Positions 18,983 through 33,414 of a stretch of 33,486 bases of DNA are shown in pieces. A program made the translations under genes and the position numbers. The stretch covers positions 1 through 33,486 of the forward strand of contig REDZ01000087.1 of assembly GCA_007695345.1 (NCBI GenBank), in the 5' to 3' direction. The notes beneath the pieces were generated by a model, which saw only the letters and a program-made list of their open reading frames with translations, made no database searches and had not been told where the DNA came from. Within the stretch, counting starts at the first letter, position 1; each line of letters opens with the position of its first letter. The DNA comes from Paracoccaceae bacterium (lineage in GTDB: Bacteria > Pseudomonadota > Alphaproteobacteria > Rhodobacterales > Rhodobacteraceae).

Positions 18983-20467
18983 TCAGGCCTTGCGGCGCCA
19001 GAGCCTCCAGAGCGGTAGCAGCAGCAATACCACTATGGCGCAGACGAACCCCGCAGAGATCGGACGTTCGAGAAACACCATCGGGTCACCGCGCGCCACC
19101 AGCATGGCGCGGCGCAGATTGGTCTCTATCAGGGGGCCGAGAACGAAGCCAAGCAGCAGCAGCGCCGGACTGAGCCTGGCCAGCGTCATCAGATACCCGG
19201 CCAGACCGATCCCGGCAACAAGCACGATGTCGAATGTCAGCCCGCGCACCGAATAGACACCAAGACACAGAAAGACGATAATCGCAGGGTAAAGATAGTT
19301 GAACGGGATGCGCAGCATTGCGATCCAGATGCCGATCAATGGCAGGTTCAACAGGATCAAGAGCAGGTTCCCGATCCCGAAACTGGCCACAAGGCCCCAG
19401 AACATCTCGGGGCGAGCCTCGAGCATCATCGGACCGGGCTGGATGCCATGAATGATCAGCGCGCCCAGCATCAGCGCCATGATCGGGTCGCCGGGGATAC
19501 CCAGCGTCAGGGTCGGCGCGAAGGCCGTGATCGAGGCCGCATTGTTACCTGCCTCGGGGCCAGCGACCCCTTCGATGGCCCCTTTGCCGAAGCGCTCGGG
19601 CTGACGGGAAAGCCGCCGCTCGGTCGCATAGGCCAGAAAGGCCGAGAGCGTCGAGCCCGTTCCCGGCAAGGCCCCGAAGAAGCTGCCCAATGCACCGCCG
19701 CGCAAAACCGGCAGTGGAATGCGACGCAGATCCTCGCGCGTTGGCAGAAGGCTGCGCATGGATATGCGGGCCGCGGTTTTCTGCCGCTCGGGGTTGCGGA
19801 TATTGGCGATCACTTCGGCCACGCCGAACAACCCCATCGCAAGCGCCACAAGGTTCAGGCCATCGAGCAACTCGGTCTGACCAAAAGTGAAGCGTTGCGC
19901 GCCGGAGTTCACATCCGTTCCGATGCAGCCCAGCAGCACACCGAGCGTGATCATCGCGAACCCCTTGACGGGTCGCGTGGCCCCGATGGTCGAGGCCGCG
20001 ACCAGTCCGAAGATCATCATCATGGCATAATCGGCCGCGCCAAATCGCGTCGCCAGAGCCGACAGCCAGCCTGCCAGCACCACAAGCACGACGATGCCGA
20101 TCATTGCCCCTGTGAAGGAGGATATCATCGCCGTGAACAGCGCCAGCCCCGCGCGGCCCTGTTGCGTCAGCGGGTAGCCATCGAGTGTGGTCACGGCGGA
20201 TTGCGGGGTGCCGGGAAGACGCAGCAGGATCGAGGCCACGGCGCCGCCATATTGCGCGCCGTAATAGACCCCGGCCAGCATGATCAGCGCAGCCTCGGGG
20301 CTCATGTAAAATGTCAGCGGCAACAACATCGAGATCGCCGCCATGGCGCCGATTCCGGGTAGAACGCCGACGAATGAACCCAGCAGCACGCCAAGCACGC
20401 AATAGATCAGTATCTGCGGCTGCAATGCGAAGCTCAGCCCCAGAAGCAGGCTTTCCCATGTGCTCAT
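18983..20467 (-). CDS. tctA: TTT transporter large membrane subunit
   Basis: Large permease component of a tripartite tricarboxylate transporter in the inner membrane. The 494 residues are highly hydrophobic, with about twelve helices. TctA landmarks are GVLPGIGAMAAISMLLPLTF near residue 30, YYGAQYGGAVASILLRLPGT, FFGALPGTGSTLSAFLAYAT and GPEAGNNAASITAFAPTLTLG, the last a hallmark of the family. The open frame begins at 20569, but the ATG at 20467 overlaps the tctB stop codon (ATGA, four bases) and is the family start. Last gene of the tctC-tctB-tctA transcript. The substrate of this system cannot be read from sequence; TTT systems import citrate, aromatic acids and other carboxylates. Confidence 0.95.
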   Translation of the reverse strand: MSTWESLLLGLSFALQPQILIYCVLGVLLGSFVGVLPGIGAMAAISMLLPLTFYMSPEAALIMLAGVYYGAQYGGAVASILLRLPGTPQSAVTTLDGYPLTQQGRAGLALFTAMISSFTGAMIGIVVLVVLAGWLSALATRFGAADYAMMMIFGLVAASTIGATRPVKGFAMITLGVLLGCIGTDVNSGAQRFTFGQTELLDGLNLVALAMGLFGVAEVIANIRNPERQKTAARISMRSLLPTREDLRRIPLPVLRGGALGSFFGALPGTGSTLSAFLAYATERRLSRQPERFGKGAIEGVAGPEAGNNAASITAFAPTLTLGIPGDPIMALMLGALIIHGIQPGPMMLEARPEMFWGLVASFGIGNLLLILLNLPLIGIWIAMLRIPFNYLYPAIIVFLCLGVYSVRGLTFDIVLVAGIGLAGYLMTLARLSPALLLLGFVLGPLIETNLRRAMLVARGDPMVFLERPISAGFVCAIVVLLLLPLWRLWRRKA

Positions 20468-20910
20468 GACAGGCGTGGCCAGAGCGGCAGCGTCATGCGC
20501 AGCCCGACGTGAAAGATCAGCACTGTCACAAGCGTGATCGACAGCGCCAGAACACCCCGCCAGCGCCACCCGCGGCGCTGTGCAGGCAAGGTCGCGATCA
20601 GGACCGTGACAAAGCTTGCGCCGACAAGGCCCAGACGCGGCAGCGCAAGGCCAAAGACCAGCACTGCCGCAAGCACCAGGACCAGTGACACGCCATCAAA
20701 CTGCGCCCCTTCGCCGCCCCGCAAGAATGCCGGCAGCGCGATGATCAGCCCGAAGCCACAGAGCGCAAGACCTATGGCGACGGGAAAGAACCCCGGCCCC
20801 ATCTGGCGCAGGGTTCCCATATCGTAATTCTGCCATGCGTAGAGGGCAGCGCCGATCCCCACGATCGCGAGGATCAGACCGCCCCAGACCTCTGGCCAGT
20901 CGCGCTGCAT
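20464..20910 (-). CDS. tctB: TTT transporter small membrane subunit
   Basis: A 148-residue protein with four predicted helices, the typical TctB layout. It has VWGGLILAIVGIGAALYAWQ at the N-terminus, then the conserved TLRQMGPGFFPVAIGLALCG block (residues about 33-52). Two further hydrophobic stretches follow (SLVLVLAAVLVFGLALPRLG and VLALSITLVTVLIFHVGL). Family identity rests on the GPGFFP motif and its position between receptor and large permease. It begins 13 bases after the tctC stop and overlaps tctA by four bases, so the three genes are one transcript. Confidence 0.92.
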   Translation of the reverse strand: MQRDWPEVWGGLILAIVGIGAALYAWQNYDMGTLRQMGPGFFPVAIGLALCGFGLIIALPAFLRGGEGAQFDGVSLVLVLAAVLVFGLALPRLGLVGASFVTVLIATLPAQRRGWRWRGVLALSITLVTVLIFHVGLRMTLPLWPRLS

Positions 20911-20923
20911 CCTGGAACTCTGA

Positions 20924-21901
20924 CTATTGCGCCTCGACCCTGTCGATCACCGCGCCCCACATCTCGGTATCGACGACGATGCGCTCTGCCATGTCTTCAG
21001 GTGTGCCGGGGGCCACCTGCCAGCCCATTCCCAGCATCTGCTCCTGAACATCCGGATCCCCCAGAATATCGGTGATTTCTGCATTCAGGCGCGCGATGAT
21101 CGCCTCATCCGTGCCTGCTGGTGCAATGAAAGCGTTCCACAACTCGGCGCGGAAATCATCCGGCAGCCCCGCACTGCCTGCGATCGGCGCCACATCGGGC
21201 ATCTGTCCGAATGGTTCGGCGGATGTGATGCCAAGAACATTCATTGTCCCCGCTTCGACAAAAGACAGCGCGGCAGAGGGCGCCATGAAGCCCGCGTCGA
21301 TCTCTCCTCCGAGGATCGATGTCGTCACTTCCGCGTAGCTGGTAAAAGGAATATGGAGCATGCTCAGACCCGCTTCGGCCGCGAACAGCTCGGCCGTAAG
21401 ATGCGCGCCAGACCCCTGCCCGACTGAACCGTAGCTCAGGGCATCAGGCTCGGTCCCGGCAGCCGAGATGAACCCCTCCAGATCATCGATCCCGCTTTCG
21501 CTGGCCACAGCCAGCACCAGCGGCGAGGTTGCCAGAAGCGTGACTGGCGCAATATCTTCCGCAACGTCAAAGCCCGTGTCGTCCATCATCCGCTGTGATG
21601 TCGTCATCGGGCCATTGATGGTCGTGCCGAAGGTATGCCCGTCACCCGCAGATACCAGCATCTGCTGAATGCCGATGACCCCGCCAGCGCCTGGCCGGTT
21701 CTCGATCACGACCGGCTGACCCAGGCGCTCCGACAATTTTTCGGTCACGACACGCGCCAGCACATCAGGCGACGATCCCGCCGGAAAGCCGACAAAGACA
21801 CGCAGGGGCTGCGAGGGCCAGTCGTCCTGTGCACTTGCAGGTAGTGCAAAGCTGCAGAGCGCGCTGGCCAGCACCAGATGCATAGTGGTTGATTGCTTCA
21901 T
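20924..21901 (-). CDS. tctC: TTT transporter periplasmic substrate-binding protein
   Basis: High-affinity periplasmic receptor of the tripartite tricarboxylate transporter. The 325-residue precursor has a signal peptide (MKQSTTMHLVLASALCSFAL) with cleavage after ASA near residue 24. The mature part has WPSQPLRVFVGFPAGSSPDV, the usual TctC ligand loop, then VIENRPGAGGVIGIQQM and, in the second lobe, SYGSVGQGSGAHLTAELFAA and PDVAPIAGSAGLP. The start at 21901 is preferred over the open frame to 21955 because GGAGGA precedes it and the signal peptide begins there. The 228-base region upstream shows no clear promoter and no other gene. TctC proteins bind diverse carboxylates; the ligand is not known here. 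Confidence 0.94.
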   Translation of the reverse strand: MKQSTTMHLVLASALCSFALPASAQDDWPSQPLRVFVGFPAGSSPDVLARVVTEKLSERLGQPVVIENRPGAGGVIGIQQMLVSAGDGHTFGTTINGPMTTSQRMMDDTGFDVAEDIAPVTLLATSPLVLAVASESGIDDLEGFISAAGTEPDALSYGSVGQGSGAHLTAELFAAEAGLSMLHIPFTSYAEVTTSILGGEIDAGFMAPSAALSFVEAGTMNVLGITSAEPFGQMPDVAPIAGSAGLPDDFRAELWNAFIAPAGTDEAIIARLNAEITDILGDPDVQEQMLGMGWQVAPGTPEDMAERIVVDTEMWGAVIDRVEAQ

Positions 21902-22129
21902 GTCGTCCTCCGCTGATTTTGCGCGCACAAGACCAATATTTGATTTTGAATGCAAGTCATTCCGAATGTGTCAGGCGTCGCCGCAACCGCATCAGGGTGC
22001 ATGCAACGTACTCGCCTCTGATGCGATTGCTCCGGGGCGGGTCGAGCGTCTGCTCTCCAAGTAACCGGGTTTGCAGAGGTTACACAAAGTAGCCGCGAAG
22101 TGGCGAGGGGCATGATCATAGACGCGCGC
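21902..22129. other. Intergenic region upstream of tctC
   Basis: Between tctC and the 3' end of the hydroquinone reductase gene. It should contain the tctC promoter. An AT-rich stretch near 21930-21960 (minus strand CAAAATCAAATATTGG) is the most likely place, but no hexamer pair with good spacing was found. Confidence 0.3.
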
Positions 22130-23833: not shown

Positions 23834-24061
23834 TCATCCTTGTGCTCTGTTGTTCACACCGGGAATGAACAGCGTTTCGACCTGATCGCGCTCCAGCAGC
23901 GCAAGCCCGGCTTCCAGCCAGTCAAACTGGCCCGTGAAGACAATGGCGGTTTCAGGAAGACTGGCCGGAATTGCCGCGGGTACAGATCGACGCAGAAACT
24001 CCGCGCTTGGCAATAGCGCCAAGACCATCGGACTTGCTGTTGCGACCCGGATAACCGTCAT
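23834..24061 (-). pseudogene. Truncated DUF218 (YdcF/ElyC-like) protein fragment
   Basis: Seventy-five codons beginning with a hydrophobic segment (SPMVLALLPSAEFLR) and continuing ETAIVFTGQFDWLEAGLALL and ETLFIPGVN. This resembles the start of DUF218 domain proteins, where an AIVVLTGG-like strand is followed by a helix and LFISGV, in a domain of about 150 residues. Here translation stops straight after PGVNNRAQG, so about two thirds of the domain is missing. The stop codon lies on the methyltransferase start region, suggesting a deletion fused the two. Could still be expressed as a short peptide; I judge it non-functional. The family call is from motif resemblance only. Confidence 0.5.
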
Positions 24062-24085
24062 CAGCCATTTCAAATCATGCCACGC

Positions 24086-24469
24086 GCGACAAGGCCCGAA
24101 TAGCCCTTCGCGCCGCCCGACTGCAACACAAAGCCGAAACGAAAGGGCCTTGCTGCTTTCCCCACGCCCACAAGGCCGTTTCATGCTGACCCTGGACAAG
24201 CGCGGCCTACTGAGCAGCGTACCCGGTTTCGGGATCCCCGGCGATTTCCGGGTCATGGCCAGCGATTACGATCATCTGCTGCGGACCGCCATGCGCTGGT
24301 TCGACATCAGGTGATCCGACCCCGCACTTGGCGGGAACGCTGTGACTTCGCCGTGGTCATCGCCGGCCCGAACCCGGCACTGCGCAGGGGCCAGCCTTAC
24401 AGCAAGGACCTTCTTGACGCCGCGCATCGATGAGGATCGCCACGACAGTCGCGCGGTTATCGGCGCGGA
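24086..24469. other. Region with no firm gene; possible coding remnant on plus strand
   Basis: A plus-strand frame ending at 24314 contains a protein-like tail, FMLTLDKRGLLSSVPGFGIP then GDFRVMASDYDHLLRTAMRW, that is not low complexity and may be the C-terminal fragment of a lost gene. I do not recognise its family. The sequence before it and from 24315 to 24469 shows only poor frames. It lies within a stretch of decayed genes. Confidence 0.3.
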
Positions 24470-24625
24470 TCAGTCGCCCAGGATCGGAGGGATCGGGTCG
24501 GTGTGATTCATTACATCGCCCTGCTCTGCTTCGATCTCGTCCATAGCCGCAAGCCATGTAATCAAACGCAGTCGAACTTTATCGATCTCATCCTCAGGCA
24601 AGGGGATGCCGTGCCCGCCGGACCA
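24470..24625 (-). pseudogene. C-terminal fragment of an unidentified small protein
   Basis: The last ~50 codons of a minus-strand frame, HGIPLPEDEIDKVRLRLITW then LAAMDEIEAEQGDVMNHTDP and IPPILGD, look like a genuine helical protein tail. The pattern of a PLP segment, a two-helix stretch and a TDPIPP ending recalls small subunits encoded beside amidases (AtzG/DUF4089-like), but this is weak. The sequence upstream in the same frame is implausible, because it runs into the remains of a tctC-like gene in another frame. It seems to be a junction left by a deletion. Confidence 0.4.
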
Positions 24626-24766
24626 ACCATGGTCAGCGTGCGTTCCGGAAAATTTTCGGCCTGGGCATTCCAGCGGGCACAGTGATAGCGACTGGACCCA
24701 AGACAAGGGCTGCCGCGGCAACCGCTGCGAATCTCCGGCGGATGGGTATCTTGGTCGATTTTGCAA
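24600..24766 (-). pseudogene. Truncated and frameshifted TctC-like receptor
   Basis: From a possible TTG start at 24766 (preceded by GAGGAGA) one frame gives a clear signal peptide: AKSTKIPIRRRFAAVAAAAL, VLGPVAITVPAG. Near 24662 the homology changes frame and reads QAENFPERTLTMVGPAG, the standard mature start of TctC receptors (cf. WPSQPLRVFVGFPAG in the intact copy). After this the gene is cut off and joins the unrelated fragment ending at 24470. So a second TTT receptor once stood at the end of the catabolic cluster. Loss of about 280 residues makes it non-functional. Confidence 0.65.
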
Positions 24767-24900
24767 GTCTCTCCTCTGTCGATCTGAGAATTGAAAGAGA
24801 TGTGCCTCCTGCTGGCGAACCCCGGATCAGCTTTGCCAGCGTGGCGGGGCGGGGTCCCGTTTTTCCGGGCATGGGTTGACGGCACATTTCCCAAGTTAAT

Positions 24901-24919
24901 AATTGCATATTATACAATT
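24901..24919. promoter_or_regulatory. AT-rich imperfect palindrome, candidate GntR-family operator
   Basis: AATTGCATATTATACAATT matches its own reverse complement at 16 of 19 positions. It lies about 135 bases upstream of the broken tctC-like gene, inside an AT-rich island unlike the surroundings. A related motif precedes the GntR gene (TTGTATATTATGTAT at 31506-31520; 12 of 15 identical to this site read on the minus strand, TTGTATAATATGCAA). Operator function is inferred. Confidence 0.4.
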
Positions 24920-25086
24920 ATCTAGCTTACCCATCTGGTACCCCCAGTTTCCCTCAAGAATTATTCTTGTCTATTTTCATTTAGAGTCTTGCGGCGATAT
25001 CTACCGTTCTCAAGCATTCGGCAGTTACATAACAGCTGACACCTCTTGCGCGACTTTTCAGCGCTCTGGAAACGTCTTGCTCTTAC

Positions 25087-26454
25087 TCAAGCTTCTGCGG
25101 TGTCACTCTCGGGAATGGAGGCAGCGGTCAGAACGCCCAGATCAGAGATCTTGTCAAGCGTCCATGCCATCTCCAGCAGCTTCTCGGAAGCAGCCTGACC
25201 AATCACCAATGCAGATTGCGTCAGGAACTTCTCCTCAAGCTGAGCATTGGACAGCGGGCGCTCCCGGCTGCCGATGGCGCGCTCGACATGCTTTTCGACC
25301 GTGCTGCCATCTTTCATCTGCAACCGTATCGTGACCGAGGCCTCGTGACACGCCGGATCGGGCGTCGCTTTGACCTTGCCCCGCAGCGCGACGACAGCGG
25401 GCAGGTTAACCACCTCATCCGTAAAGGCGGTCGGCGCACCATCGCCGCGCAGAAGCGCACATGCAGCCGAATGATAGACGCTGAACTTGCCTTCAAGCCC
25501 GGTCCTGGGACTGGTCTTGCCAGTCAGCTCCAACACCAGCGGATGCGTCGTCAGTTCGACAGCGTCGATCTGTTCAATCTTCTGGGGACCAAGCTCCTCG
25601 CGCAGCTGCTGGCAGCCATCGATGGTCGGGTGGATCACGATGCCACAGGCATAGGGTTTGTAGCTGTTCAGCGCCGCTTCCCAACGCGTCCCAAGGCCCT
25701 CGAGGATTTCGTCATAATCCTGCTTGTCAGACAGGATATTGGCAAACCCGCGCCGCCCCTCGATCCCGGTAAGCGCGGAGTCAAACCCCGCTTCCGCCAT
25801 ATGCGCTGCAAATGCGCCATTCTGCGCGGCGCGGCCCGGATGGAATGACTTGGTCATGGTTCCGAACATCTCGCGCAGACCGGACGCCTGGGTTGCAGCC
25901 AATGACAGCGCCCATTGCATCTGGGTCCGGTTCAACCCGATCGCATACCCGACTGCCGCGGCGGCCCCAAAGACGCCCGCCGTACCGGTGATATGCCAGC
26001 CGCGATCATAATGATCCGGATAAACCGCATTGCCGATCCGGCATTCCACCTCGACCCCGATAATCATTGCCGTCAGCAGCTTGTCGCCGGGAATGCCACG
26101 GGTTTCGGCCAGGGGCACCAGCGCGGACGCGACCGGGCCTGCCGGGTGAATGATGGTTTTCAGATGTGTGTCGTCATAATCCAGCACATGGCTGGTGATC
26201 CCGTTCAGCAACGACGCATGCAACTGATCAAGCCGATCTGCACGGCCAATCACCTGAGCGGTCTTGGGCCCGCAAAAGGGGCCAATGGCGCTGATCGCAT
26301 GGCCCGCACTGGGATGGTCAGCCCCCCCCACAGCGCAGCCCAGCCAATTGACAAAGGTGCGCAACCCTTCCGCGCGGACCTCGGCAGAGATATCCGCAGG
26401 TTTCAGGTTCACGATCCAGTCGGCCAGTTGTTCGGTGACATTTGGTGTGCTCAT
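25087..26454 (-). CDS. MmgE/PrpD family protein, copy A
   Basis: A 455-residue member of the 2-methylcitrate dehydratase / cis-aconitate decarboxylase / iminodisuccinate epimerase superfamily. It has an N-terminal helical domain and a C-terminal lid domain. Family landmarks: SHVLDYDDTHLKTIIHPAGP near residue 90 (Asp, Thr and His of the active site), GWHITGTAGVFGAAAA near 150, TMTKSFHPGRAAQNG near 200 (Lys), YKPYACGIVIHPTIDG near 270 (Lys), and GLEGKFSVYHSAACAL near 315. All expected catalytic positions are present, so it should be active. It is clearly more distant from the two upstream copies than they are from each other. GAAGGA precedes the ATG; a strong hairpin lies in the 63-base gap upstream. 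Substrate unknown. Last gene of the operon. Confidence 0.9.
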   Translation of the reverse strand: MSTPNVTEQLADWIVNLKPADISAEVRAEGLRTFVNWLGCAVGGADHPSAGHAISAIGPFCGPKTAQVIGRADRLDQLHASLLNGITSHVLDYDDTHLKTIIHPAGPVASALVPLAETRGIPGDKLLTAMIIGVEVECRIGNAVYPDHYDRGWHITGTAGVFGAAAAVGYAIGLNRTQMQWALSLAATQASGLREMFGTMTKSFHPGRAAQNGAFAAHMAEAGFDSALTGIEGRRGFANILSDKQDYDEILEGLGTRWEAALNSYKPYACGIVIHPTIDGCQQLREELGPQKIEQIDAVELTTHPLVLELTGKTSPRTGLEGKFSVYHSAACALLRGDGAPTAFTDEVVNLPAVVALRGKVKATPDPACHEASVTIRLQMKDGSTVEKHVERAIGSRERPLSNAQLEEKFLTQSALVIGQAASEKLLEMAWTLDKISDLGVLTAASIPESDTAEA

Positions 26455-26480
26455 TGTGTTTCCTTCTCGAATTTGAACAT

Positions 26481-26501
26481 AGGGCGCGGCAGCCGCGCCC
26501 T
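26481..26501 (-). other. Strong hairpin between MmgE/PrpD copies B and A
   Basis: AGGGCGCGG (26481-26489) pairs with CCGCGCCCT (26493-26501) around a three-base loop, in the 63-base gap between the two genes. There is no T-run on the minus strand after it. It may stabilise the upstream mRNA or reduce read-through into copy A. Confidence 0.55.
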
Positions 26502-26517
26502 GTGAAAAGCGCAGTGT

Positions 26518-27930
26518 TCAGCGCCGCGTGAGCAGCCCCGCATCAACTGGCGCAGCCGTCCCGAACAGCCCATCGGCAAAGGCTGCAATTGCATCTGCAT
26601 CCGCACCGTTCCAGGACGCGAATGCCAGATTCGCGCGGCATTTCGACAGGATTTCAGGACGCGTCATCTTCTGACGGGTTCCACCCCGCAGTTGCGGCTG
26701 ATGTTCGCGCAGCCTTTGGCCCGATTTCAGGCGCAACTCGACCGTGCCGGTATAGTTGCGTGGATACTCGTCATCGGGGTCGATCTCATAGCGGGTCTTG
26801 GCGGCCATGGCGCGTGCGCGCGGATCGGCAATTGCCGTTTCGGTAAACTCTGACAAACCTGCATCGCCGAACACATAGCCCGCAGCCACTGTATAAGGCC
26901 CCGAGAATTTCGCTGCATAGGGTGTCGGCGGGGATTGTTTAAGCTCCAGCGGCGCCCATAGCCTGTGCACGGTTCCCTCGCCCACATAGCAGACAACCTC
27001 TTCGATCTCTTCGACGGGGACCTTGTGGGATGCAAGGCGGACGGCACAATCGATGAAGGGTTGGGTCATGGTCCCGCATGCATAGGGTTTGAAGGCGACA
27101 TTTGCCGCTTCCCAGCGCGTGCTCAATTCACCCGTGAGCGAATCGAAATCAGGCGTTCCGAGCGATGGCGCGAAGGCCTGGTATAACCCATGGACCCCTT
27201 CAAACACCGTTACCGGACCGCGAAACCCGGCCCCGCCCATCGCGGCGGCCCGGATCGCGGCCTGTGCGGCCCAACCGGGATGCATCCGTTTGGTCCATGT
27301 GCCATCGGCCAGATACTCGATGATACCGGAAGACTGACTTGCCGACACACCCAATGTGTCGCGCAACTGGGTTGCGCTCTGCCCGCGGGCAACACCAACC
27401 CCGAGGGCTGCCGCCACGGTTCCCAGCACCGAGGTCGGATGAAAGCCCTGCTTGTGCACCGCTTTTTGCGCAACAAGCCCCATACGGCACATCACCTCGA
27501 TGCCTACAGCCATGCCAAGCGCGACACGTTCTGAAGGCAATTCATAGGCTTCGCCCGCCGCGATGAGGGCCGGCACGATCACAACGCCTGAATGGACGGG
27601 ACACCCTTCATAGGTGTTGTCAAAATCCTCGCCATGGCCGGTCGTGCCATTGATCAGCGCGGCATCAAACGGGCTGCGGGTTTCACGCGCCCCGTAAACT
27701 GTGCATCCGCCCTCCAGATCGGCGGCGGATCGAACGGCCTGGCCATAATCCGTCTCTGTCGCGGCGATCGAAAGTCCGACAGTGTCGATCAGCGTATTGG
27801 CAACCGCGTCGCGCACCTCGCCGGGCAATGCGCTCACTTCAAGACCTGCGGCCCAGCCAGCCAGTTCCTCGGACACCGCTTTCTCGGCCACAAGATCCGA
27901 TCCTGCAACAGTCATGCTCTTCTCTTCCAT
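26518..27930 (-). CDS. MmgE/PrpD family protein, copy B
   Basis: A 470-residue MmgE/PrpD protein. Landmarks: GHGEDFDNTYEGCPVHSGVV near residue 90 (Asp, Thr and His), KQGFHPTSVLGTVAAALG near 155, EYLADGTWTKRMHPGWAAQA near 205 (Lys) and AFKPYACGTMTQPFIDC near 285. In the last block the His of the usual HPxID motif is Gln. The C-terminal domain has PPTPYAAKFSGPYTVAAGY and DPDDEYPRNYTG. It shares long near-identical blocks with copy C, implying tandem duplication. The ATG at 27930 begins two bases after the copy C stop, with GAGGA upstream; ATG at 27915 is an alternative. Reaction not assignable: dehydration, decarboxylation and epimerisation all occur in this fold. Confidence 0.9.
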   Translation of the reverse strand: MEEKSMTVAGSDLVAEKAVSEELAGWAAGLEVSALPGEVRDAVANTLIDTVGLSIAATETDYGQAVRSAADLEGGCTVYGARETRSPFDAALINGTTGHGEDFDNTYEGCPVHSGVVIVPALIAAGEAYELPSERVALGMAVGIEVMCRMGLVAQKAVHKQGFHPTSVLGTVAAALGVGVARGQSATQLRDTLGVSASQSSGIIEYLADGTWTKRMHPGWAAQAAIRAAAMGGAGFRGPVTVFEGVHGLYQAFAPSLGTPDFDSLTGELSTRWEAANVAFKPYACGTMTQPFIDCAVRLASHKVPVEEIEEVVCYVGEGTVHRLWAPLELKQSPPTPYAAKFSGPYTVAAGYVFGDAGLSEFTETAIADPRARAMAAKTRYEIDPDDEYPRNYTGTVELRLKSGQRLREHQPQLRGGTRQKMTRPEILSKCRANLAFASWNGADADAIAAFADGLFGTAAPVDAGLLTRR

Positions 27931-27932
27931 CG

Positions 27933-29309
27933 TCAATCGTCCTCCCCGCCGAAGCGTGCCAACCCGGACATGTCCGCCGCTGTGTCCAGCCCGCGCAGAT
28001 AGCCCAGAAGCCTGGCACCGCGCTCGGCCCTCCAACCGCCATAGGCGATGTTGGCCGCAAATTTTTCGGTAATCTCGGCCTCGGTCAGCGGCTCGCGCTG
28101 CCCACCGCGCATGTGTGGCTGGTCGTAGGACAGCTCGCGACCGTCCTTCAGCCGAACCCGCAGATGCCCGGAATAGTTCCGGGGGTATTCGTTCTCGGGG
28201 TCTATCCGATAGCTGATCTTGCGCGCGAGTGCGCGGATCGCGGGATCATGCGCCTTTTCATCGGTGAACTGGCCCAGCCCCGCGTCACCTTCGAAAAAGC
28301 CCACAGCCATGCAATAAGGCATGCTGAATTTCGCTGCATATCCGGACGGGGGCTCGTGCTTGGCGCCCAATGGCTCCCACAGCCGGTGGACAAGGCCTTG
28401 GCCGGTCGGACAGATGATTTCCTCGATCTCGTCAGCATGGATGCCGTCGCGCCCCATCCGGATCGCACAATCGATATAAGGATGGATCATTGTCCCGCAC
28501 GCATAGGGCTTGAAGGCGATCCGCTCCATGTAAAAATGCGTTCCCAGACCATCGGTTACATGCGAGAAATCGGGGGTCGCCGTGGGCGCGAATGCGTGGA
28601 AGAAGCCGTGATCGCCCTCCAGTACAGTACGGGGGGCAAAGAAACCCGATTGCGCAATGACAGCCGCACGCAGACCCGATTGCGCTGACCAACCCGGATG
28701 CAGCCGTTTCGTCCAGGCCCCATCGGCCAGATATTCGATAATCCCTGACGAAAAGCTGCCCGCGATCCCCAGCGCCATGGTCAGCCGACGCGCATCCAGC
28801 CCAAGCGCCGTACCTGTACCGACTGCCGCGCCCAGCGTGCCGATCACGCCCACAGGGTGAAAGCCCGCCTTGTGCATGTGCCCCGCCGCGACATGGTTCA
28901 GACGGCAGATCGCCTCGCAGCCCGCAACGATCCCGGTCATCACCCGCTCGCCCGACAGCCCGAAGCGTTCGCCTGCGGCCAGTACCGCAGGGATGACCAT
29001 GGCCCCCACGCGGATGGGCGCACCTTCCAGCGTGTCGTCGAAATCCTCTCCATGCGTTGCCGTGCCGTTCACAAGCGCCGCACCACCCGCATCCAGTCTG
29101 CGCCCATGGCCCAAGAGTGTGCAGCCCCCGTCACTGTCCCATGTCCGGACAAGCTGACCGATATAGTCCGTGTGCCGCGCAGCAATGCACAGCCCCGCCA
29201 TATCGATCAGGTCCAGCATCGCCACATGCCGCGCGCGTTCGGGCAGATCGGCCCATCGCAGCGCGGCCATCGCCTCGGCGAGATGCTCGGCCTGTGTTCT
29301 TGTGTCCAT
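27933..29309 (-). CDS. MmgE/PrpD family protein, copy C
   Basis: A 458-residue MmgE/PrpD protein and the closest relative of copy B. Shared blocks include HGEDFDDTLEGAPIRVGAMV, HKAGFHPVGVIGTLGAAVG, SSGIIEYLADGAWTKRLHPG, AFKPYACGTMIHPYIDCAIR and SGYAAKFSMPYCMAVGFF. The active-site Asp (D89) and Thr (T93) are kept, but the following His is replaced by Arg (R100), while HPxID is intact; copy B has the opposite pattern. This suggests either a different substrate or a B-C hetero-oligomer. The ATG at 29309 starts two bases after the ComA-like stop, with GAGGA upstream; a GTG at 29315 is less likely. Cytoplasmic. Confidence 0.9.
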   Translation of the reverse strand: MDTRTQAEHLAEAMAALRWADLPERARHVAMLDLIDMAGLCIAARHTDYIGQLVRTWDSDGGCTLLGHGRRLDAGGAALVNGTATHGEDFDDTLEGAPIRVGAMVIPAVLAAGERFGLSGERVMTGIVAGCEAICRLNHVAAGHMHKAGFHPVGVIGTLGAAVGTGTALGLDARRLTMALGIAGSFSSGIIEYLADGAWTKRLHPGWSAQSGLRAAVIAQSGFFAPRTVLEGDHGFFHAFAPTATPDFSHVTDGLGTHFYMERIAFKPYACGTMIHPYIDCAIRMGRDGIHADEIEEIICPTGQGLVHRLWEPLGAKHEPPSGYAAKFSMPYCMAVGFFEGDAGLGQFTDEKAHDPAIRALARKISYRIDPENEYPRNYSGHLRVRLKDGRELSYDQPHMRGGQREPLTEAEITEKFAANIAYGGWRAERGARLLGYLRGLDTAADMSGLARFGGEDD

Positions 29310-29311
29310 GC

Positions 29312-30121
29312 TCACCCGTCCTCTTCCGTGGTTCCTGCCATCATTCCGAAAAGCCCGCGCTTGCGGATTCCGCGACGGCAGGCCTCCAGCTCAAGAACCT
29401 GATCGCTGTCCACATCCAGGTTCACCGCTGCACCAAAGCGTGACAGGAAAAAGACGATCAGGTCAGATGTCTTTGCCTGAAAGATCAACGGTTTCAGGCC
29501 AAACCCTGCGACCAGATCCTCGATTACCGCGGCATTAATCTTTGCCACGCCCTCATTCAGCCCCTCTGCCTGGATCAACACACGCTCGGCGCCTGCATCG
29601 AGGCATGCCGCAACATCGGCGCGAACGCGCGCAGCACTTGTGGCCCAGTTGGCACCGCCCTTGGTGCCGACTTCGGCAACCACTTCAAGCCCTGCGCCGC
29701 GCGCGGCACCGATAAGTCTTGTTTTGGTGGGCAGATCGAGCGTGATCTGCGCATTCGACACCTCGACCCCCCAGGCACCAAGATCTGCAATGGCCCGATA
29801 ATAGTCCTGCGCCACGCCCTGCAGGATCGCCAGTTCCGAAACCTCACCCGCCAGAAATACCGGGATTTCTGCGCGGGAATACTTTGCAATCTTGTCTCGC
29901 AGCACAGCCTCGGGCAGCAATCGCGCAAGCCCCATCGCCAGTTTTGCCCGGTCAATGAACGCGGCCGACATGCTGATCAGATCGTCCTGCGCATAAGGGC
30001 CCAGACCGCGATCGGCCGCGACGGTCAATCCGCTGCTGCGCGGGCGCAGCGGGCGCGCGGCCATGCCCACCATCCCCAGCGGATGTTCTTTCAGGCCAGT
30101 GTCAGTGCGGGTATCGTCCAT
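29312..30121 (-). CDS. ComA-family (phosphosulfolactate synthase-like) protein
   Basis: A 269-residue TIM-barrel protein resembling ComA, which adds sulfite to phosphoenolpyruvate to make phosphosulfolactate in coenzyme M synthesis of methanogens. Matching landmarks in order: GLTVAADRGLG (31-41), FIDRAKLAMG (55-64), YSRAEIPVFLAGEVSELAI (81-99), LGAWGVEVSN (114-123), VVAEVGTKGG (147-156, with the conserved Glu and Lys), ERVLIQAEGLNEG, LIFQAKTSDLIVFFLSRFG and NLDVDSDQVLELEACRRGIR. The whole length of the family is covered. In bacteria such proteins are known from coenzyme M synthesis in Xanthobacter, but the neighbours here (MmgE/PrpD, SDR) do not match that pathway, so the substrate may differ. 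Ribosome-binding site GAAAGG; 20 bases after the SDR gene. Confidence 0.82.
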   Translation of the reverse strand: MDDTRTDTGLKEHPLGMVGMAARPLRPRSSGLTVAADRGLGPYAQDDLISMSAAFIDRAKLAMGLARLLPEAVLRDKIAKYSRAEIPVFLAGEVSELAILQGVAQDYYRAIADLGAWGVEVSNAQITLDLPTKTRLIGAARGAGLEVVAEVGTKGGANWATSAARVRADVAACLDAGAERVLIQAEGLNEGVAKINAAVIEDLVAGFGLKPLIFQAKTSDLIVFFLSRFGAAVNLDVDSDQVLELEACRRGIRKRGLFGMMAGTTEEDG

Positions 30122-30141
30122 CTGGGTGCAGCCTTTCGAAA

Positions 30142-30903
30142 TTACGGCAGGTAGGTGCCGCCATTCACATGAATTGTCTGACCAGTCACAAATCGACCAT
30201 CCGGACCGGCAAGGGTCGCAACCATACCGGCAATTTCGTCCGGCGCGCCACGCCGGCCCAGCAATGGTTTGTGAATATCGTGATGACGCGGGCGCGCCGC
30301 GACAGTGGACGTGTCGCGTTTGGTGTCGACCATTCCGGGGTGCACCAGATTGACTGTGATGTTGTCAGGCGCGAGGTCCCAGGCAAGCGCCTTTGTCATG
30401 CCTTGCAATCCGGCTTTGCCCGTTACCACATGGATACGATCTGCGGCGCCCGACGATCCGGTCATGCCGCCAATATTGATGATCGCGCCTGCCGCACTCT
30501 TGCGCAGATGCGGGACCGCTGCCTGCGCACACAGGAAAGCACCGTCGAGAATGATCGACAGGATATCGCGCCAGTCCTGCAGACTGACTGAGTCGATCCT
30601 GGCTTCACGCCGGATAGCAGCGTTATTGACCAGAATATCCAACCCGCCGAACTCGCGCACCGCTGTGCCGATGAGGGTTCGAACCGCGTCCGGGTCGGTG
30701 ATGTCAGCCAGACAGCCCACGGCCTGCCCACCGGCCGCACGTATGGCCTGCACTGTCTCATCCACCTGATCCTGACGCGTCCGCGCATTGATCAAGACAT
30801 TTGCGCCATCTGCCGCAAGACGCATGGCGATAGCACGCCCGATATTGCGCCCGCTGCCCGTCACCACGGCCACGCGACCCGCCAAAGGTTTGTGTTCTGC
30901 CAT
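30142..30903 (-). CDS. SDR-fold protein with a non-canonical active site
   Basis: A 253-residue classical-length short-chain dehydrogenase. The cofactor motif TGSGRNIG (15-22), ADITDPDAV (66-74), LVNNAAI (91-97) and the C-terminal FVTGQTIHVNGGTYLP are normal. The catalytic tetrad is not: aligned to FabG, Asn is I118 (SIILDGAF), Ser is G146 (NIGGMTG) and Tyr is V159 (HVVTGK); only K163 remains. An adjacent H158 might substitute. It may belong to a divergent SDR branch with GG-x-(S/T)-x-x-x-G-A-x-x-R-x-H-V motifs. R40-41 in NARTR suggests NADP preference, inferred only. The ATG at 30903 has GGGGTGG upstream; GTG at 30912 is an alternative. First gene of the operon. Confidence 0.88.
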   Translation of the reverse strand: MAEHKPLAGRVAVVTGSGRNIGRAIAMRLAADGANVLINARTRQDQVDETVQAIRAAGGQAVGCLADITDPDAVRTLIGTAVREFGGLDILVNNAAIRREARIDSVSLQDWRDILSIILDGAFLCAQAAVPHLRKSAAGAIINIGGMTGSSGAADRIHVVTGKAGLQGMTKALAWDLAPDNITVNLVHPGMVDTKRDTSTVAARPRHHDIHKPLLGRRGAPDEIAGMVATLAGPDGRFVTGQTIHVNGGTYLP

Positions 30904-30939
30904 TTCTGCCACCCCGAGCCCAGTATTGATTCCGTCCCT

Positions 30940-30972
30940 TAAATTCCTATCTTATATAAAATATAAAATCTA
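30940..30972. promoter_or_regulatory. AT-rich divergent promoter/operator region
   Basis: TATCTTATATAAAATATAAA lies between the divergent SDR operon and the 139-residue protein gene, in otherwise GC-rich DNA. It offers -10-like hexamers on both strands and loosely resembles the AT-rich palindromes at 24901 and 31506. Probable control point of the catabolic operon; precise elements cannot be fixed. Confidence 0.4.
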
Positions 30973-30973
30973 G

Positions 30974-31017
30974 CCCAGAGTTGCCAGCAAAAGTGGCAGA
31001 TGGCACGGAACTCTGGG
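30974..31017 (+). promoter_or_regulatory. Leader stem-loop overlapping the ribosome-binding region
   Basis: CCCAGAGTT (30974-30982) pairs with AACTCTGGG (31009-31017), with inner GCCA/TGGC pairs. The right arm ends at the Shine-Dalgarno stretch (GGGAGGGTGAGG) of the gene starting at 31031, so folding could hide part of it. Regulatory function is inferred. Confidence 0.4.
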
Positions 31018-31030
31018 AGGGTGAGGCAGA

Positions 31031-31450
31031 ATGACCTTGGTTACACGAAAGAGTTTCCTGGAAGCGCTGCGCGATCCCGGCGGTTTGCCACAAGGCGAAA
31101 TCGACAGAATCGATGGCCTGTGGCCGGGAGCAAAAGCAGCAGCGGAACAGGCACGCGCCGTGATGCCCGGGATCGGCTTTTTTTCGCCGCGTCGCCGGGC
31201 CGAGGCCTTTGTCGCGCTTTGCGCTGAACTTGACCGCGCGGCAAAGGATCAAGGCCTGGCGCAAGAGCAATGCCAGCTTGCGCTTGCCATCCTGCGAATG
31301 AGCGCAGCGCGCATCCGCAAAGCCGAAGCAGGTTTTCTGGCCCGGTTTCCACGCATGGACAGCGCCGCACAAGCGTCTCTACCAGAGACTGCCAAACATT
31401 TCCTGTATTCAATCCATCTGTTGCAGCAAGCCGACACTCCAGACACCTGA
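31031..31450 (+). CDS. Hypothetical helical protein
   Basis: A 139-residue protein of unknown family. It starts MTLVTRKSFLEALRDPGGLP and has no signal peptide or membrane helix. The composition (Ala, Arg, Leu, Gln, few beta-branched residues) predicts mostly helices; notable segments are GIGFFSPRRRAEAFVALCAE and ETAKHFLYSIHLLQQAD. A strong ribosome-binding site, GGGAGGGTGAGG, precedes the ATG, supporting real translation. It is divergent from the SDR operon and 103 bases upstream of the GntR gene on the same strand. A regulatory or accessory role in the cluster is possible, but nothing in the sequence shows function. Confidence 0.65.
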   Translation: MTLVTRKSFLEALRDPGGLPQGEIDRIDGLWPGAKAAAEQARAVMPGIGFFSPRRRAEAFVALCAELDRAAKDQGLAQEQCQLALAILRMSAARIRKAEAGFLARFPRMDSAAQASLPETAKHFLYSIHLLQQADTPDT

Positions 31451-31505
31451 TGTAGCGATTGGCAATGCACGCGCGGAAATTCATGCTATATCAATGCGCC
31501 AGGAC

Positions 31506-31523
31506 TTGTATATTATGTATTGG
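31506..31523. promoter_or_regulatory. AT-rich motif upstream of the GntR gene, candidate operator
   Basis: TTGTATATTATGTATTGG lies about 30 bases before the GntR start. The first 15 bases agree at 12 positions with the motif at 24901-24919 read on the minus strand. Placement fits autoregulation. Inferred. Confidence 0.4.
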
Positions 31524-31553
31524 CATCCAGCAGAATGTTGACGGGAGACCGGG

Positions 31554-32327
31554 ATGAACAGACGCGCACTCGATCCGGGTGGCAGCAGCAGCGACAGCGA
31601 CGATTTGCGCCCAAGCCCGCTGCCGCTTTATCAACAGGTCAAACGTCACCTGGTCCAACGTGTGCTCGCCGGTGAGTGGAAGCCGGGCCTGTCGCTGCCC
31701 TCGGAACAAAAGCTCGCGCAGGAATACAAACTCAGCCAAGGCACAGTTCGCAAGGCGATCGAGGAAATGGCGCAAGAAGGTCTGGTCAGCAGACGCGCCG
31801 GGCGCGGCACTTTCGTGACGTCGCATAGCGGAAATTATGAACCCTTTCGCTTTCATCGTCTGTTCGACAATGAGGGCCGGCGTATCGCAACAGACGCCGT
31901 TTCATTCGTCCGGGTCGAGGACAAACATATCCATGCCCGCGCTGCCGCCGGGCTTGAGCTTGATCATAGCGCACCAGGTACCGAATGCGTGCGTCTTCGC
32001 CATCTTGAAGATGAACCCGTGCTGGTCGAACAAATCGTGCTCGGCGCGCGCCTGACACCGAATATCGCACCTGCACTTGAGCGTGAACGCCCGCCCTCGA
32101 TTTATCAATTGCTGGAGCGGGATTATAATCTGTTGGTCACGCGGGTTGTGGAACGCGCACGTGCGCGCGGCGCCACGCATGAAGAGGCTGATTTGCTGAA
32201 CATCGCAGAAGGCACGCCTGTCCTCGAAGTGGAGCGCGTGGCTTACAGCCTGGGCGGCGAACCTGTCGAGTGGCGCATCATGGTGGGCGAAACCAGCAAG
32301 ATCCACTATCTGCAAACCAGCGATTAG
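31554..32327 (+). CDS. GntR/HutC-family transcriptional regulator
   Basis: A 257-residue ligand-responsive DNA-binding protein. The winged helix-turn-helix lies at about residues 22-90: PLPLYQQVKRHLVQRVLAGEW, then LPSEQKLAQEYKLSQGTVRK, AIEEMAQEGLVSRRAGRGTF. The UTRA effector-binding domain follows at about 100-245, with ECVRLRHLEDEPVLVEQIVL, ERPPSIYQLLERDYNLLVTR and the typical ending LEVERVAYSLGGEPVEWRIM. HutC-type regulators usually repress catabolic operons and are released by a pathway metabolite. It probably controls the divergent SDR-ComA-MmgE/PrpD operon and itself. GGGAG precedes the ATG at good spacing. Confidence 0.92.
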   Translation: MNRRALDPGGSSSDSDDLRPSPLPLYQQVKRHLVQRVLAGEWKPGLSLPSEQKLAQEYKLSQGTVRKAIEEMAQEGLVSRRAGRGTFVTSHSGNYEPFRFHRLFDNEGRRIATDAVSFVRVEDKHIHARAAAGLELDHSAPGTECVRLRHLEDEPVLVEQIVLGARLTPNIAPALERERPPSIYQLLERDYNLLVTRVVERARARGATHEEADLLNIAEGTPVLEVERVAYSLGGEPVEWRIMVGETSKIHYLQTSD

Positions 32328-32337
32328 ATGCGCCCGG

Positions 32338-33414
32338 CTACTCTTCTGGCGAGCGAATGCCCGTGCGCTTGCCGATGTGATGCAGGATGATGGGCGAGAG
32401 GCTGTTCAGCAGAACACTGCGCACTGTCTGATGAAATATCACGAACAGCGGATCGACCCCCAATGCGGCAGCAAGAATCGCCATCTCGGCTATCCCTCCG
32501 GGCGTAACGGCAAGTAGCGCCACATAAAACGGCACCCCCGTTGCCCAATGAATGATCAGCGCAAGCCCGGTGGCCAGCCCAAGGATCAGAGCAGTCGCGA
32601 CCACCGCATGGCCGCCCGGCGCAAGCAATTCGCGCGGGCTGCCGATACCATGGAACCGCCCGCCAATCGCAGTGCCAAGCACCAGGAACGTGCAGGCAAA
32701 CAGCCATGGCGGCAGCGTGATCTGCACAGCGGACAGGCTAAGCGCCGCGGTGACACACATCGGCGCCAGCAATTCGGGCATCGGCAAGCGAATCGCCCGG
32801 CCCAGATACCACGCGGGTGGCGCAAGCAGCAGCACCCAGATCCCGTCACCCAGCCAGCTGGTTTGAGGCCCGCTCCAGCCGCCATCCATGCCGGCGCCCT
32901 GCCAGACCATGTAAAGCGGAGGGACAAGGATAACGACAAGACTGATGCGCAGCAGCTGGGCGATCACCACCTGGCGTGGCTCGGCCCCCAGTTGCAACGC
33001 AATCACCGTGACATTGCTCAACCCGCCGGGCAAGGCGCTGGCAACGGCCGTTACCGGGTCGAATCGCGCGACCAGCCGGTAATACAAGGCCACCAGCACC
33101 ACGATTCCGATCATGCCAACAATCAGAATTGTCAGGCTCAGGGGCCATTGACCTACGCGCGCAAACACTTCTGGCGTGATCGCAGCCCCCAGCAGGACAC
33201 CGATCACGCCGCGCGCGCCCACCTTCAACGGATTGGGGATTCGGTACTTCATGCCTGCCATAGATACGACCGCACCAACCAGAAGCGGCCCCAGCATCCA
33301 CGGCAAAGGTAACCCGATCAGATTTGCGAGCACCCCCCCAACAAGCCCCACGGCAACCGCACGACCGAACAAGACAAGTGTTTCGCGTGTAGGCGTCAGT
33401 GGGGAAAACTTCAT
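32338..33414 (-). CDS. AbrB-family membrane protein (putative transporter)
   Basis: A 358-residue inner-membrane protein of the AbrB/PF05145 family, two repeats of about five helices each. Landmarks of the repeats are PLPWMLGPLLVGAV (near residue 37), ALPGGLSNVTVIALQLGAEP (near 150), ELLAPMCVTAALSL, and in the second half LLAVTPGGIAEMAILAAALG followed by DPLFVIFHQTVRSVLL. The PGG motifs in each half are family hallmarks. Earlier databases label such proteins ammonia monooxygenase, which is misleading. E. coli AbrB affects aidB expression; the transport substrate is unknown. It ends ten bases from the convergent GntR gene, so its 3' end is shared with the cluster. It may export or import the substrate of the neighbouring pathway. 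Confidence 0.85.
   Translation of the reverse strand: MKFSPLTPTRETLVLFGRAVAVGLVGGVLANLIGLPLPWMLGPLLVGAVVSMAGMKYRIPNPLKVGARGVIGVLLGAAITPEVFARVGQWPLSLTILIVGMIGIVVLVALYYRLVARFDPVTAVASALPGGLSNVTVIALQLGAEPRQVVIAQLLRISLVVILVPPLYMVWQGAGMDGGWSGPQTSWLGDGIWVLLLAPPAWYLGRAIRLPMPELLAPMCVTAALSLSAVQITLPPWLFACTFLVLGTAIGGRFHGIGSPRELLAPGGHAVVATALILGLATGLALIIHWATGVPFYVALLAVTPGGIAEMAILAAALGVDPLFVIFHQTVRSVLLNSLSPIILHHIGKRTGIRSPEE

Follow-up and report, generated by a model that had tools for sequence, protein, structure and literature searches.

What does an operon do in which three MmgE/PrpD proteins are encoded beside a relative of phosphosulfolactate synthase (ComA) and an atypical short-chain dehydrogenase/reductase (SDR)? 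The question is raised by a stretch of 33,486 nucleotides from a Paracoccaceae bacterium (GenBank assembly GCA_007695345.1, contig REDZ01000087.1, positions 1 to 33,486), hereafter the window. We showed that the association of these genes is conserved, that a DNA element is specific to the cluster and that catalytic residues have changed in a clade-specific manner. The account that we favour, and that we regard as fairly likely when taken as a whole, is that of an inducible operon for the catabolism of a substituted 1,4-dicarboxylate (succinate) or of a tricarboxylate. Its most general part, i.e. a catabolic operon for some carboxylate, can be proposed with much confidence. The system consists of the following features.

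25087 to 26454, minus strand: MmgE/PrpD protein A, 455 amino acids, canonical two-base site (Pfam PF03972/PF19305)
26518 to 27930, minus strand: MmgE/PrpD protein B, His99 kept, Tyr145 to His, Asp91 to Asn (Pfam and alignment)
27933 to 29315, minus strand: MmgE/PrpD protein C, His99 to Arg, Tyr145 to His (Pfam and alignment)
29312 to 30121, minus strand: ComA-like TIM-barrel-family protein, 269 amino acids, altered phosphosulfolactate-synthase site (Pfam PF02679)
30142 to 30912, minus strand: non-classical SDR, Ser to Gly, Tyr to Val, Lys kept (Pfam adh_short_C2 and alignment)
30950 to 30967, plus strand: operator-like element TCTTATATAAAATATAAA, in front of the five-gene operon (upstream-region comparison)
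31554 to 32327, plus strand: GntR/HutC-type regulator, GntR and UTRA domains (Pfam, NCBIfam)

The five genes run from 30912 to 25087 in the order SDR, ComA-like, C, B, A (open reading frame list and Pfam). A sequence-only reading of this stretch had called them tightly spaced, which holds for the gaps of 20 bases (SDR to ComA-like), 2 (C to B) and 63 (B to A); the ComA-like gene and C overlap by 4 bases, or are 2 bases apart if a later ATG is taken as the start of C. The ATG of B was likewise inferred, the open reading frame list having an earlier TTG. Every family call of that reading (three MmgE/PrpD proteins, ComA, SDR, GntR-type regulator, AbrB) was backed by Pfam, and both Pfam domains, MmgE_PrpD_N and MmgE_PrpD_C, are present in A, B and C, with E values of 1e-50 to 1e-71 for the first. 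The window is contig C20 of a genome of 3.26 Mb in 231 contigs, 91% complete (G000), in which the three PF03972 matches and the single PF02679 match all lie inside 5.1 kb, i.e. in the operon.

Is this gene set more than a local accident? ComA matches above the cut-off were found in 17 of 385 genomes of a sample of the class and in 3 of 398 of a sample of the phylum, the window genome being counted in both. A first set of 20 stretches that we fetched lay around ComA hits, as did 14 of a second set of 16. Two genomes of one genus, G060 and G363, encode on one strand a ComA-like protein, three MmgE proteins, an SDR, a HutC-type regulator and the transporter TctCBA. A third, G329, has the ComA-like gene with MmgE genes of types B and C and of two further types. 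G780 resembles it, with B, C and a two-base MmgE, and four more genomes of the same order have the ComA-like gene with C. C stands beside ComA in all five further genomes of the order of G329 (stretches L080-L084), being cut by the contig end in L084. ComA matches are frequent in this order (6 of 11 genomes match the ComA alignment A1, the top score of each genome lying between 432 and 496 bits) and occur in 4 of 17 genomes of the family of G060, two of them strongly. Within the order of the window they occur in 4 of 390 genomes, namely the window and three weak cases of 74-118 bits. Hence, the ComA-like gene and an Arg-type C are found together in three families and nearly the whole set in two. 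The proposal that ComA-like and MmgE/PrpD genes form a unit, which lack of conservation in other genomes was to have refuted, has survived, since nearly the whole set recurs in one other alphaproteobacterial genus and the ComA-like gene with C in a third family. We found no description in the literature that joins these genes.

The association is seen as clearly from the side of the MmgE proteins. C and B belong to one superclade, which is represented in the class sample by 28 matches in 23 genomes (E <= 1e-100). Four of these matches are of the Arg type, 22 of the His type and two unreadable (weak, L124 and L125). All four Arg-type genomes (G000, G060, G329 and G363) have the gene beside ComA, and no ComA match was found in 20 stretches around other B/C-type matches, nor in five short loci of the second sample. 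In that sample 7 of 343 genomes matched the superclade, with no further Arg type; no relative of C was found in viral contigs.

The MmgE/PrpD family is large: homologues are present in 19.2% of GTDB species, yet the characterised functions listed in 2025 numbered only four (PMC12290011). The same paper describes a common 1,4-dicarboxylate backbone and a proposed common enolate mechanism for these four kinds of enzymes, and names H85, D88, H99, Y145, H150, K198 and K266 as the residues of iminodisuccinate epimerase. We compared eight positions, D91 being added to these seven, in an alignment of 51 rows (48 proteins and 3 references), of which 46 were grouped into clades and five rows of one clade were left ungrouped in the residue count; frames under 150 bits or under 300 residues, e.g. 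the cut C of L084, and L090, a duplicate of L041, were left out. The A clade retains all seven named residues, including His99 and Tyr145, and Asp91 (5/5), and thus has the two-base site of iminodisuccinate epimerase and methylsuccinate isomerase. Neither B nor C has it. The B clade keeps His99 and replaces Tyr145 by His (11/11). In the C clade His99 is replaced by Arg and Tyr145 by His in 9/9 members, including one on a Sodalis praecaptivus plasmid, while the other six positions are retained, also in 9/9. The earlier suggestion of three successive PrpD-type steps is therefore not supported: the catalytic residues are not the same in A, B and C, and C has lost the base of the family. Assignment as the 2-methylcitrate dehydratase PrpD was considered and rejected on scores far under the NCBIfam cut-offs (best 48.4 of 950, 39.3 of 575 and 33.5 of 458 bits). 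To cis-aconitate decarboxylase the operon proteins are related by sequence alone. The third MmgE of G060, G363, G329 and G780 belongs to a clade other than A and yet holds the full two-base site, so that the two-base role seems constant although the gene differs.

The ComA-like protein has been altered as well. It matches Pfam ComA at 178.6 bits (cut-off 25.2) and reaches 134.9 bits with the NCBIfam equivalog arch_ComA, under the cut-off of 280. ComA forms a C-S bond, adding sulfite to phosphoenolpyruvate. Among 32 columns invariant in nine sequences of the coenzyme M type (M. jannaschii numbering; hits aligned over 120 residues or fewer left out), the nine-member clade of the window retains 22 and has lost 8 in 9/9 members, among them E168Q, R170E, E205Q and a deletion at G177. 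D20, K43, E103, E133 and K137 are retained. Gln at 168 and 205 is unique to the window clade, the 34 other homologues having Glu wherever a residue exists; R170 and the adjacent loop are also lost in most other homologues that are not of the coenzyme M type. With R170, the neighbouring loop, E168 and E205 gone, the protein is probably not a phosphosulfolactate synthase, and we rejected an assignment as sulfolactate synthase on the same residue losses. The sulfite and phosphoenolpyruvate chemistry that had been envisaged for it is not borne out either, the active site having been rebuilt.

The SDR had been called degenerate from the window alone, and the replacement of its catalytic residues turns out to be conserved across its clade. 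The classical catalytic residues of SDR enzymes are Ser, Tyr and Lys. The window protein keeps Lys and lacks the classical triad, Ser being replaced by Gly and Tyr by Val in 24/25 aligned rows (matches of 120 bits or less left out); L138 provides the one exception, a second SDR that has the classical residues and lies distant from the B-type gene. Near-duplicates enter into both the SDR and the ComA counts (window and L004; L093 and L096, both of the P. versutus type). The window protein passes the NCBIfam FabG subfamily cut-off, at 224.3 of 222.

The operon also appears to be regulated, as had been proposed, by way of a DNA element shared ahead of the operons. The regulator gene is transcribed away from the operon, in keeping with the divergent arrangement described before, with a 139-residue reading frame in between. 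It is of the HutC type and not HutC, since it scores 110.2 bits against an NCBIfam equivalog cut-off of 220; relatives 41-43% identical are found in the G060 and G363 clusters. By comparing upstream regions we found TCTTATATAARATATAAR, which occurs with 0 mismatches once each in the whole genomes of G000 and G003 and twice each in those of G060 and G363. All exact copies are at the cluster: each of the four genomes has one in front of the operon, and the second copy of G060 and G363 precedes tctC. No exact copy was found in G329 and G783, whose cluster stretches showed no HutC-type gene; the four of six genomes with the element are those with such a gene in the cluster stretch, G003 being near-identical to the window. 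Shuffled windows gave no match. We claim the exact matches alone because, at up to 2 mismatches, the element has one extra match, overlapping a G363 site, and the reversed control pattern has one match in G003 and one in G363. A HutC palindrome, tried as operator, was no better than shuffled sequence, its score being reached in 116 to 496 of 500 shuffles.

Around B/C-type matches the commoner arrangement is TctCBA - B-type MmgE - SDR. It also occurs on plasmids of P. yeei, Pacificitalea, Phyllobacterium and Neorhizobium, as annotated, and of R. jaguaris, as read by blast. Several of these core clusters have A-type proteins 56-71% identical to that of the window (66.7-71% for proteins of Paracoccus versutus, P. 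yeei and Pacificitalea), and some add isopropylmalate/tartrate dehydrogenase, PdxA, TcuA or PrpF genes; in P. versutus, TcuA, PrpF and MmgE genes accompany a ComA from another clade. The company of tripartite tricarboxylate transporter (TTT), TcuA, PrpF and isopropylmalate/tartrate dehydrogenase genes in related clusters argues for a carboxylate substrate. Our best reading is that C and the ComA-like protein are a neofunctionalised addition to this commoner core of B-type MmgE, SDR and TctCBA.

How might the products work together? We infer the substrate, the order of the steps, the reaction of the ComA-like protein and the exact reactions as follows. The HutC-type regulator would bind TCTTATATAARATATAAR and act as a repressor, relieved by the binding of an acid effector to its UTRA domain. 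A, which is likely to be of the epimerase or isomerase type, would use His and Tyr as two bases in an enolate mechanism that inverts or isomerises the carbon adjacent to a carboxylate. B, with its His/His site, would act on the same backbone. C would still bind the succinate backbone (His85, Asp88, His150, Lys198 and Lys266 are retained), its Arg in place of the base probably holding an extra anionic group and permitting a one-base step only. The ComA-like protein may then be a rebuilt lyase that splits a C-C or C-X bond of the product of C; that C and the ComA-like protein act in consecutive steps seems rather probable to us, and a lyase rather than a synthase is a role that we put forward with some reserve. 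The SDR would not be a classical Tyr dehydrogenase. As judged by the aligned residues, the active sites of C and of the ComA-like protein are unlike those of every characterised relative compared. The gene set probably does chemistry so far undescribed, given that three enzyme families have lost residues used by their known relatives. A more specific version, to which we give tentative credit, is an undescribed carboxylate cleavage: an MmgE with Arg for its base and a ComA-family enzyme lacking two Glu would open a C-C, C-N or C-S bond of a succinate backbone, and the SDR would work without Ser and Tyr. Without E168 and E205 the ComA-like enzyme would perhaps no longer be metal dependent.

Several observations weigh against this account of a regulated di- or tricarboxylate operon. 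G060 and G363 are from a single genus, and it was through ComA that the five additional genomes of the order of G329 came to light. The stretches from that order showed neither the SDR nor the HutC-type gene, so that the ComA-like gene and C alone are constant in that order. The window has no transporter of the type found in the related clusters, and both predicted structure models (mean predicted local distance difference test scores, pLDDT, of 43 and 52) are too poor for the placement of residues. An OCD/mu-crystallin gene adjoins ComA in 7/9 loci of the ComA clade (L041, L042, L080, L082, L083 and L084, and L081 at the contig edge, one of the seven being cut by a contig end), and another adjoins C on the Sodalis plasmid, without ComA in the 25 kb read; a substrate of the amino-dicarboxylate kind could thus be meant. 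It is mainly these OCD genes, and the TauE genes described below, that hint at a substrate containing nitrogen or sulfur. The Sodalis praecaptivus plasmid itself (L100 11886-20018) carries an Arg-type MmgE, OCD, an ABC transporter, a flavoprotein and a TauD-family gene, next to phn genes.

It is unlikely, though the least so of the alternatives, that C is catalytically dead and serves in a B-C heterodimer, regulating an active B or holding its substrate. B and C are adjacent, 48% identical and 2 bases apart, C has lost its base, and human ACOD1, of the same family, is a dimer (PMC12259180). Yet C has retained six of the eight compared positions in 9/9 members, and L081-L084 have C with no B-type match, though these stretches are short or limited by contig ends. 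We consider improbable an amino-polycarboxylate or opine-like substrate, for which MmgE proteins would epimerise an N-substituted aspartate, in the manner of iminodisuccinate epimerase, and the OCD/mu-crystallin enzyme would cleave or reduce an imine. In its favour are the OCD genes linked to C, the imine reductases among OCD relatives and the fact that the best solved relatives of C are iminodisuccinate epimerase chains. The OCD proteins are 44-58% identical between groups and 91% within the genus of G329. However, no close OCD relative was found in the window genome or in G060, and argininosuccinate/fumarase-type lyase references were unmatched in the module stretches. Nor is the OCD clade specific to the cluster, since G329 and G783 hold further relatives elsewhere, up to 49% identical.

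To the catabolism of a sulfonated carboxylate we give an equally small chance. Here the substrate would resemble sulfosuccinate, the Arg of C would hold the sulfonate and the ComA-like enzyme would run the ComA reaction backwards (retro-Michael loss of sulfite), followed in relatives by TauE-type export of sulfite. The bond formed by ComA itself speaks for it, as do TauE/SafE-family genes next to or near the ComA operons of G060 (L040 10477-11337) and G363 (L042 12848-13609), six other genes tested from the far side of L042, OCD included, having no match in the L040 stretch. TauD-family genes also lie near C in Sodalis and near the B-type MmgE in L145, L147 and L148. Yet G060 and G363 are of the same genus, TauE and TauD are broad families, neither gave a match in the window or at the f113 loci that carry ComA, and E168, R170, E205 and the loop are lost. 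Of the earlier idea that the route makes or breaks a C-S or C-C bond, a C-S bond keeps some plausibility from the TauE-family genes near the cluster in G060 and G363; sulfite and phosphoenolpyruvate chemistry by the ComA-like protein found no support. Finally, a chance neighbourhood or decaying mobile segment without joint function, which a lower G+C content (61.3% vs 64.8%) and the ComA gene in only 1/23 other genomes of the genus might suggest, is most improbable and largely contradicted by the conservation in three families, by the recurrence of a near-whole set with the element in two, by residue changes that run through whole clades and by open frames.

The operon may be a recent arrival. 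A segment of 6,844 bases is 99.58% identical between the window and L004 65-6908 (G003, the one other genome of the genus with the ComA gene), and ComA is absent from the other 22 genomes sampled, which suggests either a recent acquisition of the operon or a contig shared between bins. Two neighbours are of uncertain membership.

31031 to 31450, plus strand: orphan 139-residue reading frame, between operon and regulator (no family match)
32338 to 33414, minus strand: AbrB-duplication membrane protein (Pfam AbrB, 244 bits)

The orphan frame, with no Pfam or NCBIfam match, was matched among the loci compared in L004 only, at 100% identity, and by tblastn the AbrB protein too matched L004 alone above 60 bits (weaker matches left out of this comparison). 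The clusters of P. versutus, P. yeei, Pacificitalea and Phyllobacterium also contain genes annotated as AbrB family. The window encodes an intact TctC-TctB-TctA set, at 18986-21955 on the minus strand. Since its TctA shares only 32-41% identity with the TctA proteins of related clusters, this set is probably not the transporter of this system, and we set it aside as a candidate. A broken TTT receptor had been reported nearby. We discarded it, as tblastn of 10 TTT proteins against 24000-25086 gave a best E value of 0.039, for a piece of 35 residues.

MmgE and ComA genes also meet outside the window clade. Of the 19 ComA stretches that the class sample provided besides the window, some of which are short, 5 include an MmgE in the part fetched, and MmgE adjoins ComA in 3/4 loci of a sister clade (Methylosinus, Methylocystis and two further genomes; exception L085). 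Other ComA-linked MmgE proteins have altered sites, with His99 to Lys in two that are linked to PrpF and His150 to Asp in the methanotroph type and in L046. This is no general rule of ComA linkage, as the MmgE of L055 is canonical and that of Pacificitalea, without ComA, also has His150 to Asp. In L014, L059 and L087 methanotroph and related MmgE proteins with His150 to Asp and His85 to Arg are paired with a ComA-like clade having K137 to Gln. The PrpF-linked MmgE with His99 to Lys stands with a ComA-like gene in Bradyrhizobium (L012 5358-8786) and Paracoccus versutus (L096 9983-19960, with TcuA too). Another ComA clade lies beside TcuA, isopropylmalate dehydrogenase-like, PrpF and MmgE genes in L046 3964-10306, and a different ComA has TcuA and dehydrogenase-like neighbours in L052 7025-10563.

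The cluster thus defines MmgE clades with changed active sites, the rebuilt relative of ComA that is linked to them, a clade of atypical SDRs and a putative switch element, which makes the screening of substrates practical. Where a gene next to MmgE/PrpD genes is annotated as phosphosulfolactate synthase, that name may be wrong. How does it compare with known systems? With PrpD of the 2-methylcitrate cycle and with the itaconate and methylsuccinate clusters it has in common an MmgE/PrpD enzyme in carboxylate catabolism, whereas its proteins are far under the PrpD model cut-offs. Iminodisuccinate epimerase (2hp0/2hp3) and (S)-(R)-methylsuccinate isomerase are of the same fold family; A has their catalytic residues, making 1,4-dicarboxylate chemistry likely, while B lacks the Tyr base and C both the His and the Tyr base, and by Pfam none of the five operon genes encodes a C-N lyase or an enzyme of itaconate clusters. 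ComA/XcbB of coenzyme M synthesis shares PF02679 and D20, K43, E103, E133 and K137 with the ComA-like protein, which differs from it in R170, E168, E205, the loop and the NCBIfam score, and in its setting, no other gene of the coenzyme M type being found among the window reading frames scanned. The alphaproteobacterial TctCBA-MmgE-SDR clusters, of which we found no description, show no ComA-like gene and no Arg-type C; yet they share with the window the SDR clade, the B-type MmgE and, in part, the A-type MmgE and the AbrB-type protein, and an isopropylmalate-dehydrogenase-type gene accompanies them on 4/5 plasmids (P. yeei, Pacificitalea, Phyllobacterium, Neorhizobium and Rhizobium jaguaris).

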